Shown here: positions 61,225 to 64,000 of the stretch, in pieces
Numbering within the stretch: position 1 is the stretch's first letter
Layout of the letters: each line of letters opens with the position of its first letter
DNA from: Zhongshania aliphaticivorans
GTDB lineage: Bacteria > Pseudomonadota > Gammaproteobacteria > Pseudomonadales > Spongiibacteraceae
Reading direction: 5' to 3'
DNA length: 64,000 nucleotides
Assembly (NCBI RefSeq): GCF_902705855.1
Contig: NZ_CACSIJ010000015.1
Location: forward strand, 66,670-130,669
Position numbers and translations under genes: made by a program
Notes under the pieces: model-generated
Seen by the model: the letters and a program-made list of their open reading frames with translations, nothing else
What the model was told of the DNA's origin: nothing
Database searches by the model: none

Positions 61225-62115
61225 CTACTTCGTCGCTGGTACTTCCTTATGTTTAAGTACCAAGACCCCGCCTAATACCACGCAGGCAATCCCTACAAGC
61301 GTTATCGTGTCGGGAATATGATCCCACACCAGCCAATCCAACAAGCCACTAAACACCACCCCAAAATAACTGATTGGCGCCAAAGCCGCCGCCGACACAT
61401 AGCGGTAGGCCAAGGTATACATAACAAAACTTAAATAGATCACAACACCCATATACAACAAACCAGGCCAGGCGGACGTTGGTATCGGACTATAATTCCA
61501 AAGAAAAAATGGCAGGCTAAACAGCAAAGAAATACTAAAATAATAAAATAGAATACGACTTTGAGGTTCGTGTTGCGCCAATACTCGGGTGCTCACCATC
61601 GATATAGCCAACCCCAAACCTGACAGCAACGCCAGTAAATGCCATAAGCTTAGGCCCTCAAAATCCGGTTTAAGCACCAAAACTATGCCAACAAACCCAA
61701 CGACAAGCGGTGGCCATGTTTCCTTGCGTACACGTTGACTAAACCACAAGAAAAGAATGAGAGGCACCATCAAGGGCGCAGATGAGCGTAGCAAGGTAGC
61801 TTCTACCAAAGTAATTTTACTAAGCGCGAGGTAATACAAGTAGAAACACGCGCAACCGCTCACACCCCGCACCAGATGCCATCGCGGACGTGACGTTGCT
61901 AAGCCTGAACGACCCGCCCGCAGAATCGACGGCAAGGAAAACAAAAAACTAATACCGTATTGCACAAGCACAATAGTGGAGACATGAACCTCCTGCGACA
62001 CGTGCTTTCCCACCGCTGCTACCGTGCTTGAAAAGAACACCGTCACCAGAGACAGCAATAAGCCCATCAGTAATTGCTTTCTTTCTAGTGTTAATGGCAA
62101 GACAGTCACTCTCAA
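61225..62115 (-). CDS. EamA/DMT-family transporter
   Basis: 296 residues, about ten transmembrane helices in two EamA repeats (drug/metabolite transporter superfamily). HVSTIVLVQYGISFLFSLPS and YVSAAALAPISYFGVVFSGLLDW are family-typical. Probable exporter of small metabolites; substrate unknown. The open start at 62115 is a TTG without a good ribosome site; the internal Met at residue 17 or a GTG at 62109 are alternatives. It is convergent with the BatD gene. Confidence 0.85.
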   Translation of the reverse strand: MRVTVLPLTLERKQLLMGLLLSLVTVFFSSTVAAVGKHVSQEVHVSTIVLVQYGISFLFSLPSILRAGRSGLATSRPRWHLVRGVSGCACFYLYYLALSKITLVEATLLRSSAPLMVPLILFLWFSQRVRKETWPPLVVGFVGIVLVLKPDFEGLSLWHLLALLSGLGLAISMVSTRVLAQHEPQSRILFYYFSISLLFSLPFFLWNYSPIPTSAWPGLLYMGVVIYLSFVMYTLAYRYVSAAALAPISYFGVVFSGLLDWLVWDHIPDTITLVGIACVVLGGVLVLKHKEVPATK

Positions 62116-62285: not shown

Positions 62286-62495
62286 TTACTTCTTATCGGC
62301 GCCACATTTAGCTTCGCCGCACTTACCTTCTTTAGCTGCTTTGTCTGCTCCGCATTTCGCTTCGCCGCACTTACCTTCTTTTGCTGCTTTATCTGCGCCG
62401 CATTTCGCTTCGCCACACTTACCTTCAGTCGTTTTTTTCTCAGCACCACACTTCGCTTCGCCGCACTTTCCTTCTGCGTCTTTTGCGTAATCAGC
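62286..62495 (-). repeat. 48-bp tandem coding repeats in hvfA
   Basis: Four units of about 48 bp code for EGKCGEAKCGADKAAK-like segments. Units two and three are nearly identical at the DNA level, the outer ones are diverged; this suggests recent expansion by unequal crossing-over. Confidence 0.88.
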
Positions 62496-62615
62496 AAGCT
62501 GATAGCCGCTGCTCATTACTTTCGCCGCAAAGGGGTTGGTATCTGCAACGGCAACGGAAGCCATTGAAGACGCTAGCATGGCCGCACCGAGGGCCGTCAT
62601 CGCAGTATTTTTCAT
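62286..62615 (-). CDS. hvfA: HvfA-family Cys-rich repeat peptide (predicted copper-binding RiPP precursor)
   Basis: 109 residues. A signal peptide (MKNTAMTALGAAMLASSMASVAVA) is followed by a short linker and four tandem units of EGKCGEAKCGA (16-residue period in the central copies), each with two EGKCG/EAKCG cysteines, eight Cys in all. EGKCG repeats are the hallmark of HvfA-type precursors whose Cys are converted to oxazolone/thioamide groups by a DUF692 MNIO enzyme with a partner protein. Here the neighbours are a DoxX/HvfX-like gene and an ECF sigma factor; the DUF692 and DUF2063 genes are not visible and may lie beyond the right edge or elsewhere. Confidence 0.9.
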   Translation of the reverse strand: MKNTAMTALGAAMLASSMASVAVADTNPFAAKVMSSGYQLADYAKDAEGKCGEAKCGAEKKTTEGKCGEAKCGADKAAKEGKCGEAKCGADKAAKEGKCGEAKCGADKK

Positions 62616-62676
62616 TGTGTCATCACCTTATTTATAAATTAAAAGATCAAATTGGCCGCTTTAGTGCGACGCTGCC

Positions 62677-62707
62677 TATAAGAGAATCAACAATCCAAAC
62701 TGTTACA
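62677..62707 (-). promoter_or_regulatory. Putative ECF-type promoter of hvfA
   Basis: On the minus strand TGTAACA (62701-62707) and TCTTATA (62677-62683) are separated by exactly 17 bases, about 61 bp upstream of the hvfA start. The same pair with the same spacing occurs facing the other way in front of the DoxX gene. Confidence 0.55.
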
Positions 62708-62739
62708 TCACATAGAAAATAAATTTATTCCGCGTGATG

Positions 62740-62770
62740 TGTAACAAGATTTATCGCCACACGTCTTACA
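62740..62770 (+). promoter_or_regulatory. Putative ECF-type promoter of the DoxX/HvfX gene
   Basis: TGTAACA (62740-62746) and TCTTACA (62764-62770) are separated by 17 bases, with CG just before the -10-like element, about 75 bp before the DoxX start. It resembles ECF sigma promoters with an AAC -35 and a CGTC -10, and it mirrors the hvfA site. Confidence 0.6.
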
Positions 62771-62845
62771 AGCATGAACATGCACCACGATTACCGTCAG
62801 CAAAGGGCAGTAGCGCAATCGTGACCTCTATACGGAGTAAACTCT

Positions 62846-63457
62846 ATGGTAGATTTTTTCAATAAAATTCGTGGCATCCAGAATGCCCTTGGTCGGCTAG
62901 CGGAGCCCATTGACGGCCTACCGTCACTGGCGCTGCGCCTATATTTAGTACCGGTATTCTGGATGGCCGGCAGCAGTAAAGTGATGCATTTTTCTGATAC
63001 CGTTGAATGGTTTGGTAATAGCGACTGGGGCCTTGGTTTGCCCTTCCCCTATCTAATGGCCTTTATGGCAACAGCGGCGGAGCTCGGCGGCGCCGTGTTG
63101 TTGTTACTGGGTTTGGCGACCCGCTGGATTTCTATTCCACTGGCGGTAACCATGATTGTTGCAGCGACCACTGTACATTGGCATAACGGCTGGCAAGCCA
63201 TCGCCGACGCCAGCGCGCCCTTTGCGAATGAGCGCGTCGTCGATTCTGTTGAAAAGCTATCCGCCGCCCGCTCCCTATTGGAAGCCCACGGCAACTACGA
63301 TTGGCTAAGCTCCAGCGGCAATTTTGTGGTGCTAAACAACGGGATTGAATTTGCCGTCACTTACTTAATTATGTTGTTGGCACTGGTGATGATGGGTGGC
63401 GGTAGATTTGTCAGTGCGGATTATTGGCTGAATCGCGCCTTAGCCAAGGCCAAATAA
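62846..63457 (+). CDS. DoxX-family membrane protein, HvfX-like
   Basis: 203 residues, four or five transmembrane helices. LRLYLVPVFWMAGSSKVMHFSD and FMATAAELGGAVLLLLGLATRW are typical of the DoxX family. The extra-long loop between helices (WHNGWQAIADASAPFANERVVDSVEKLS, about residues 110-140) matches the long HvfX-type members that accompany copper-binding HvfA peptides. It is divergent from hvfA with a shared promoter region of 230 bp. It could help mature or reduce the peptide or the metal, but this is inference. Confidence 0.85.
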   Translation: MVDFFNKIRGIQNALGRLAEPIDGLPSLALRLYLVPVFWMAGSSKVMHFSDTVEWFGNSDWGLGLPFPYLMAFMATAAELGGAVLLLLGLATRWISIPLAVTMIVAATTVHWHNGWQAIADASAPFANERVVDSVEKLSAARSLLEAHGNYDWLSSSGNFVVLNNGIEFAVTYLIMLLALVMMGGGRFVSADYWLNRALAKAK

Positions 63458-63549
63458 GCAATTAATTTGGACGCCAGTGCAGTGAATAGTTGCCTACAGG
63501 CAGGAGGATCAGGGACACTAAGTGCTTAATCATAGTTTGGATTAATCTG

Positions 63550-64000
63550 TGTCACTGCCCGTCGACGATCAACAGCTTATCGCCCGCCTAAAAGCGGGCG
63601 ATAATTTGGCATTTAAAGCGCTTATTAGCAGCTACCATCAAAAGCTGCTCATCGTGGCGAGGGCCATCGCTGGTGACGTATTTGCAGAGGATGTCACCCA
63701 AGAAGCGTGGGCATCGATCTACAAAGCTATTGGCAAATTTGAAGGTCGTTCCAGTCTGTCTACGTGGATGATTCAGATTGTGAGCAATGAGGCAAAGTCG
63801 AGACTGCGCCGCGAAAAGCGTCACAGCAGTTTTGGCGACATCGACGAGGTGCGTCCAGAAATTGATTCGGAGTGTTTTAACAACAACGGCCACTGGGTGA
63901 ACCCACCCTCGCACTGGGATATTAATACACCGGAACTGATGCTTCAGGAGGATCAATTAAGACACTGTATTGAACACACTTTGACGGTATTACCTGAGAA
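63550..64000 (+). CDS. ECF RNA polymerase sigma factor (partial)
   Basis: Runs off the right edge; 150 codons visible from the GTG at 63550. Sigma region 2 is clear: MSLPVDDQQLIARLKAGDNL, then FAEDVTQEAWASIYKAIGKFEGRSSLSTWM (region 2.2 to 2.4), followed by KSRLRREKR. A spacer and the beginning of region 4 (LRHCIEHTLTVLPE) follow. It starts 93 bases after the DoxX stop and is probably co-transcribed with it. As ECF sigma factors often direct their own neighbours, it is the likely regulator of the hvfA/doxX pair. An anti-sigma gene may lie beyond the edge. Confidence 0.92.

Follow-up and report, generated by a model that had tools for sequence, protein, structure and literature searches.

The closest described systems share most of their parts with the locus analysed here. 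The oxazolin/hvf system of nontypeable Haemophilus influenzae is built from the same four families, HvfA, HvfB, HvfC and HvfX (PMC13419390). HvfB and HvfC (HvfBC) modify full-length HvfA better than HvfA without its signal peptide, with a mass change of -4 Da per modified Cys (PMC13419390), and FonBC and HvfBC both produce 5-thiooxazoles (PMC13097082). The distant hvf operon of H. influenzae is controlled by RpoE2/HrsE, an ECF/ZAS pair encoded at a separate locus, and the targets of RpoE2 include a DMT transporter gene (PMC7907618). The present system is like that of H. influenzae in its proposed control by an ECF sigma factor and a ZAS anti-sigma factor from a separate locus and in having a DMT gene near the sigma locus (PMC7907618). 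However, hvf of H. influenzae forms one operon, whereas here hvfX and a second precursor gene lie with the sigma gene and hvfABC lies elsewhere.

The captophorins fontiphorin (FonABC), gonophorin and bulbicupramide (MmrABC) have EGKCG repeats and an MNIO with a DUF2063 (PME1) partner, as is the case here (PMC13097082, PMC12538549). Unlike here, these three are not known to have a second, unlinked precursor (PMC13097082, PMC12538549). The mmrABC cluster of Microbulbifer is flanked by ORFs thought to be unrelated (PMC13097082, PMC12538549), and the words 'doxx' and 'sigma' occur 0 times in the main text of the Microbulbifer paper (PMC12538549). The proteins of this hvfABC-type cluster were undetected even with added copper (PMC12538549).

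The bufferins of Caulobacter belong to the sigma-F regulon, in which one ECF factor controls two separate operons, there through GTAACC-N16-CGAA (PMC3511200); control of two loci by one ECF factor is also proposed for the present system. In CC3254-3257, the precursor, DUF692, DUF2063 and DoxX genes lie together beside the sigma gene (PMC3511200). Caulobacter bufferin precursors are members of a different family, DUF2282. CC2905-2907 of Caulobacter is a bufferin operon as well. Bufferin-type precursors without an adjacent MNIO are noted in a published survey, which allows for modification from another locus or for none (PMC12452194). The individual parts of the system are already known, and unlinked precursors have been noted before. 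Searches of the open-licence part of PubMed Central brought up no account of a two-locus arrangement of this kind, of precursor losses that complement each other or of a promoter common to both loci.

Gene organisation at the end of the window

The locus lies at the right end of the window, the whole stretch of 64,000 nucleotides that was analysed (Table 1). In the ORFs of the last 1.7 kb, hvfA1 and hvfX diverge, and the ECF gene located 3' of hvfX leaves the window and overlaps the anti-sigma gene by seven bases (locus L002). The first-pass annotation had proposed a Cys-repeat precursor facing a DoxX/HvfX-like gene that is followed by an ECF gene, and both the ORFs and the profile matches bear this out. 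An EamA gene is labelled at 12 of the 16 hvfX loci of the genus.

Table 1 Features at and beyond the right end of the window
Feature	Position	Strand	Basis
Orphan precursor gene hvfA1	62286..62615	-	109 aa ORF; NF050137; NPFAAKVMSSGYQLA leader motif; four EGKCGEAKCG units
Putative ECF promoter of hvfA1, TGTAACA-N15-TCTC, weaker variant	62682..62707	-	Relaxed motif match
Putative ECF promoter of hvfX-ECF-anti-sigma, TGTAACA-N15-CGTC	62740..62765	+	Strict motif match
hvfX, DoxX-family membrane protein, 203 aa	62846..63457	+	NF050144; PF07681
ECF sigma gene, 204 aa	63549..64163 (window part to 64000), contig C15	+	TIGR02937
Anti-sigma gene, 83 aa	64157-64408, past window end, contig C15	+	NF052368
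EamA/DMT-type transporter gene	61225..62115	-	PF00892; downstream of hvfA1, same direction

HvfA1 contains 8 Cys residues, arranged in its four repeat units, and matches the HvfA-type repeat model NF050137 with 108 bits (cut-off 19.5), which places it among the EGKCG-unit precursors. It stays below the cut-off of the HvfA equivalog NF050188 (67 vs 95). Because HvfA2, a second precursor of the genome that is encoded beside HvfBC, likewise falls below this cut-off (63.2 vs 95), NF050188 is a narrow model. The N-terminus of HvfA1 looks by eye like a signal peptide, and an NPFxAxxxxSGY motif is recognisable by eye and in the alignment.

HvfX scores 240.9 bits against the family equivalog NF050144 (cut-off 80). 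Its predicted structure, modelled from an alignment of 74 sequences, is helical with a pLDDT of 90.7; an earlier model from 16 sequences was poor (pLDDT 52). A Foldseek comparison of the model with the PDB gave no match at E <= 0.001, and therefore the function of HvfX is not readable from its fold. A second HvfX-family gene, with 202 bits, is located at G000:C11:259227-259778 (L055), and such a second copy is above the cut-off in 16 of the 18 genus genomes. A helicase-like gene is labelled beside the second copy at 11 of 13 loci inspected, and a DEAD-box helicase is confirmed in L055.

The sigma factor matches TIGR02937 with 97.1 bits (cut-off 42.9). The anti-sigma factor matches NF052368 with 56 bits (cut-off 50) and is narrowly below the cut-off of PF13490 (21.2 vs 22.2). 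Its ORF contains C4-X25-H30-X3-C34-X2-C37, in agreement with the definition of the ZAS motif as C/H-X23-26-H-X3-C-X2-C (PMC7907618). Both profile models and the motif spacing thus identify an ECF sigma factor with a ZAS anti-sigma factor.

The only enzyme pair is encoded on another contig

No maturation enzyme is encoded near hvfA1, as the first-pass annotation had remarked. It had left three options for the peptide: an enzyme just outside, a remote enzyme, or no modification. The first is rejected. Neither a DUF692 nor a DUF2063 gene is present in the ~15 kb to the right of the ECF gene, read past the window edge, and so the pair directly downstream that would have made this a standard hvf locus was not found. 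Nor are these families absent from the genome, which would have argued against a RiPP role: a search of the whole genome (3.95 Mb, 18 contigs) gives a single match to DUF692 and a single match to DUF2063, and the two genes adjoin on contig C13. The MNIO is HvfB (NF003818, 427.5 bits over a cut-off of 360; PF05114, 344.4 over 25), and its partner is HvfC (NF050145, 301.5 over 142). The candidate modifying enzyme is remote, not missing.

HvfA2, with 148 aa, is encoded directly upstream of hvfB-hvfC, and a DoxX gene was not seen at this locus. The HvfA repeat model finds only HvfA1 and HvfA2 as precursors in the genome at E <= 0.001. Because contig C13 holds the single enzyme pair together with HvfA2, the window represents only half of a system that is split over two loci. 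Of the three options, the remote one fits the evidence best, with HvfA1 being served by the pair on C13. The -4 Da per modified Cys that the first-pass annotation predicted for an MNIO-processed peptide agrees with the published chemistry of HvfBC (PMC13419390). The NPFxAxxxxSGY leader motif is common to HvfA1 and HvfA2. Because their leaders differ outside this core motif, recognition of HvfA1 by HvfC is putative.

Distribution of the two loci in the genus

The genus survey covers 18 genomes, a set that includes Zhongshania and Spongiibacter; these genomes are related, and the counts given below are not independent events. The hvfX-ECF-anti-sigma genes recur in 16 of the 18 genomes, in 14 of them with hvfA beside hvfX. 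The two genomes without a separate hvfX-ECF locus are G011, which has no HvfX match, and G017, in which ECF, anti-sigma, hvfA, hvfB, hvfC and hvfX form one operon (L015). The hvfBC locus follows hrpA in 17 of the 18 genomes, and mlaA is next at 16 of these 17 loci; at the remaining one, that of G010, mlaA was absent from the DNA that was fetched. Because G011 keeps hvfA2-hvfBC without any HvfX match, HvfX is, as far as gene content tells, not always needed and not indispensable in evolution.

Precursors are encoded at both loci in 10 of the 18 genomes, at the hvfX locus only in four (G007, G008, G012 and G015), at the hvfBC locus only in three (G010, G011 and G016) and in the single operon of G017. 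None of the 18 genomes is devoid of a precursor. In G015, the search with NF050137 gave 0 matches, and the precursor was recovered from its ORF. A tree of the neighbouring MlaA and HrpA requires at least two changes for HvfA2 and two for HvfA1; its support is modest, with 7 of the 17 inner branches starred, long branches are flagged and G017 is left out. Because outgroup genomes carry a precursor beside hvfBC, the changes in HvfA2 are read as losses. In a free tree of the leaders, the long-branch leader of G017 falls among those of HvfA1. A constraint that keeps the HvfA1 leaders together is not rejected (p 0.302), and hence a single origin of HvfA1 is possible. HvfC of G017 is far more divergent (36% identity), and its operon was possibly acquired separately.

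The four genomes with HvfA1 only retain both hvfB and hvfC, with 45 to 160 bp from hrpA to the longest hvfB ORF. In these four hvfBC loci, a scan matched the Cys motif once, in a frame interrupted by many stops, and HvfA1 is the sole EGKCG-type substrate found in the four genomes. If HvfBC were inactive on the remote peptide, they would therefore be left without a known substrate in these genomes, although they could have other, unrecognised substrates. These genomes bear directly on the idea that HvfA1 is an unmodified, metallothionein-like Cys peptide working with HvfX while HvfBC serve HvfA2 only. The absence of a maturation gene beside hvfA1 would fit this idea, and the option was left open by the authors who discussed unlinked precursors (PMC12452194). 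However, HvfBC persist without an adjacent precursor, and with HvfA1 kept, in 4 of 18 genomes through two events on the tree, the pattern is repeated in Methylophaga sp. OBS4 (see below), and HvfA1 retains the KCG repeats and the leader motif. Moreover, genomes with EGKCG precursors and no MNIO are few, 67 of 2583 (PMC12452194). We consider an unmodified HvfA1 unlikely. A family-level survey contributed only three sister-genus genomes, in which EGKCG matches are found only beside an MNIO.

In a tree of HvfB and HvfC, long branches (0.91 and 0.55) are seen in the two lineages without an adjacent precursor; they could reflect adaptation to the remote precursor. G008 encodes a second, more distant MNIO (278 bits; L027, G008:C11), near which there is an HvfX-like match below the cut-off. 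The MNIO at G035:C58:33688-34620 is matched in two pieces within one open frame of 333 aa, as if about 50 residues had been inserted or its middle were poorly conserved.

The layout in other lineages

A scan of named genomes gave 537 confirmed hvfX relatives, of which the best 80 were kept; precursors at these loci were detected by a Cys-motif pattern, by which divergent ones can be missed. Among the best 80 of the 537, there are 27 for which the fetched DNA contains hvfA, hvfB, hvfC, ECF and anti-sigma genes together and 8 in which hvfX is accompanied by ECF and anti-sigma genes only; 26, some on short contigs, have none of the other genes near hvfX, and 14 show other combinations. The arrangement of the window, hvfA-hvfX-ECF-anti-sigma without hvfBC, is found in the remaining 5 of these 80, four of which are from the genus of the window and one from Methylophaga sp. 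OBS4.

The first-pass annotation had regarded a precursor divergent from DoxX as unusual. This is rejected, since hvfX is divergent from hvfA-hvfB-hvfC at 23 of the best 80 of 537 loci, 22 of them titled Acinetobacter, where the layout is ordinary. The Acinetobacter loci resemble the present one in having a divergent hvfX/hvfA promoter region with ECF and anti-sigma genes. In Acinetobacter, however, hvfX diverges from hvfA-hvfB-hvfC-ECF-anti-sigma in one locus, and the strict TGTAAC motif described below is present in 0 of 2 loci scanned.

Sixteen outside genomes were followed, namely all 8 in which hvfX is accompanied by ECF and anti-sigma genes only, that of Methylophaga, 6 of the 26 whose hvfX has none of the other genes nearby, and one in which hvfB alone accompanies hvfX. 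An MNIO is present in all 16, and the precursor adjoins the hvfBC pair in 15. The exception is the draft genome of Methylophaga sp. OBS4, in which L155 contains hvfA-hvfX with a divergent ECF gene, and the hvfBC pair of L183 has no precursor beside it. As its gene arrangement indicates, Methylophaga OBS4 is a second lineage with the split logic of the window.

These outside genomes are informative as to whether the locus is a decaying hvf operon that has lost its enzymes, with the precursor on its way out. The lack of HvfA1 in G010 and G016, 2 of the 16 genomes with an hvfX-ECF locus, would be in line with decay. However, hvfA1 differs from its G009 counterpart by 16 synonymous and 1 non-synonymous codons, and hvfA1 is, on this codon pattern, an intact ORF under purifying selection. 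It is kept in 14 of 18 genomes, and its promoter has a TGTAAC element in 14 of 14. Furthermore, in eight outside genomes no precursor accompanies hvfX and its ECF and anti-sigma genes, and hvfA is located beside hvfBC instead. Therefore, hvfA1 looks added to the hvfX locus, not left behind, and decay is extremely unlikely.

A putative promoter motif shared by the two loci

Two outward elements are located between hvfA1 and hvfX, TGTAACA-N15-CGTC towards hvfX and TGTAACA-N15-TCTC towards hvfA1. A whole-genome search with the strict TGTAACA-N15-CGTC gives 57 matches in the 18 genomes, 15 before hvfX, 11 before the hvfBC locus and 31 elsewhere; the reversed pattern, as a control, gives 47. Twenty-six strict matches have the correct orientation and lie no more than 1 kb from a match to hvfX or hvfB, as compared with 0.008 expected. 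The strict form is found at 16 of 16 hvfX promoters (one with G for the last A), at 0 of 14 hvfA1 promoters and at 11 of 17 hvfBC promoters. The window genome itself combines a strict site before hvfX with a variant, GGTC, before the hvfBC locus.

With the -10 part loosened from CGTC to NNTC, which was done only after inspection of the sequences, TGTAAC[AG]-N15-NNTC is present at 16 of 16 hvfX, 14 of 14 hvfA1 and 17 of 17 hvfBC loci of the genus, G017 being set apart from the hvfBC count (18 of 18 with it). The gene starts behind these promoter counts were placed manually, some of them approximately; the sites of G023 and G024 lie inside the longest called ORF. The N15 match of G017 falls within the sigma gene, 429 bases before hvfA, and the likely site, 67 bases before hvfA, has N16 spacing. 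The background of the relaxed motif is 2 matches in 337 kb on both strands, about 0.001 per region. TGTAAC is present in every genus promoter region tested, as compared with about 1 to 2 regions per set of shuffled sequences. A scan for sigma-70 promoters and terminators showed no excess over shuffles.

Outside the genus, the relaxed motif is present at both loci of each of the 8 genomes in which hvfX-ECF is split from hvfABC, 16 of 16 promoters in all (Simiduia, two Gilvimarinus, three Cellvibrio and two other metagenome genomes). Not every hvf locus has the TGTAAC motif: of 27 named loci scanned with the strict pattern, 10 carry it, and it is absent from both Acinetobacter loci and from all 8 loci that have no ECF gene.

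The motif at hvfBC overlaps the 3' end of hrpA in 16 genomes, where TGTAAC falls within Val-Thr codons. It could accordingly be a by-product of hrpA coding, with HvfA1 modified in trans and the ECF/anti-sigma pair controlling its own locus only; 6 of the 17 hvfBC sites, including that of the window genome, also have no strict -10 element. However, the codons GTA-ACA are invariant in 16 of 16 genomes while the position of the hrpA stop shifts, the -10 element holds its spacing, and the site of G015 is intergenic, which together point to a constraint on the DNA. The motif also stands before hvfABC in 8 of 8 outside genomes. Control of the own locus alone is thus very unlikely, and the shared motif suggests that one stress switch turns on both loci together.

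Proposed mechanism and implications

The best explanation, which we consider likely on the genomic evidence, is a two-locus captophorin system in which the loci would be under shared ECF control and HvfA1 would be matured in trans by HvfB-HvfC of contig C13. Trans maturation and shared ECF control are both strong inferences from the comparisons described above. By analogy with the known captophorins, HvfA1 is probably copper-binding.

In the proposed mechanism, the first locus (contig C15) would supply HvfA1, HvfX and the ECF sigma/ZAS anti-sigma switch, and the second (contig C13) HvfA2 and the only MNIO/partner pair of the genome. Envelope stress or redox/metal stress may free the sigma factor from its zinc-type anti-sigma factor. 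The free sigma factor would bind the TGTAAC motif and, as the matching TGTAAC-N15-NNTC promoters suggest, direct transcription of hvfX-ECF-anti-sigma, hvfA1 and the distant hvfA2-hvfB-hvfC. HvfC would then read the NPFxAxxxxSGY leader of both precursors, and HvfB would convert the Cys residues of their EGKCG/EAKCG units to 5-thiooxazoles in the cytoplasm. We infer this action on both precursors from the chemistry of the family and from the lineages that have yielded no EGKCG-type substrate other than HvfA1. The products would be exported by Sec and bind copper in the periplasm. The published findings on related systems that are outlined at the beginning lend plausibility to these steps. The EamA/DMT transporter gene is a possible member of the ECF regulon.

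A more far-reaching proposal, put forward tentatively and in our view doubtful, is that two captophorins with different functions, encoded at unlinked loci, are served by a single MNIO pair. HvfA2 would be made with the enzyme, whereas HvfA1, made with HvfX and the sigma switch, would be membrane-coupled and loaded or read by HvfX. The trigger would be envelope oxidative stress acting through the zinc anti-sigma factor, not copper as such, and this could explain why the related Microbulbifer cluster is silent under copper.

The HvfA1-only lineages offer a natural experiment on trans maturation that is testable in cultured marine bacteria such as Spongiibacter marinus, for which no EGKCG-type precursor other than HvfA1 was found. 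The promoter signature names a candidate ECF/anti-sigma switch, encoded remotely, for hvfABC clusters with no apparent regulator. By analogy, it suggests where the regulator of the Microbulbifer cluster may be sought and which kind of stress may be tried.
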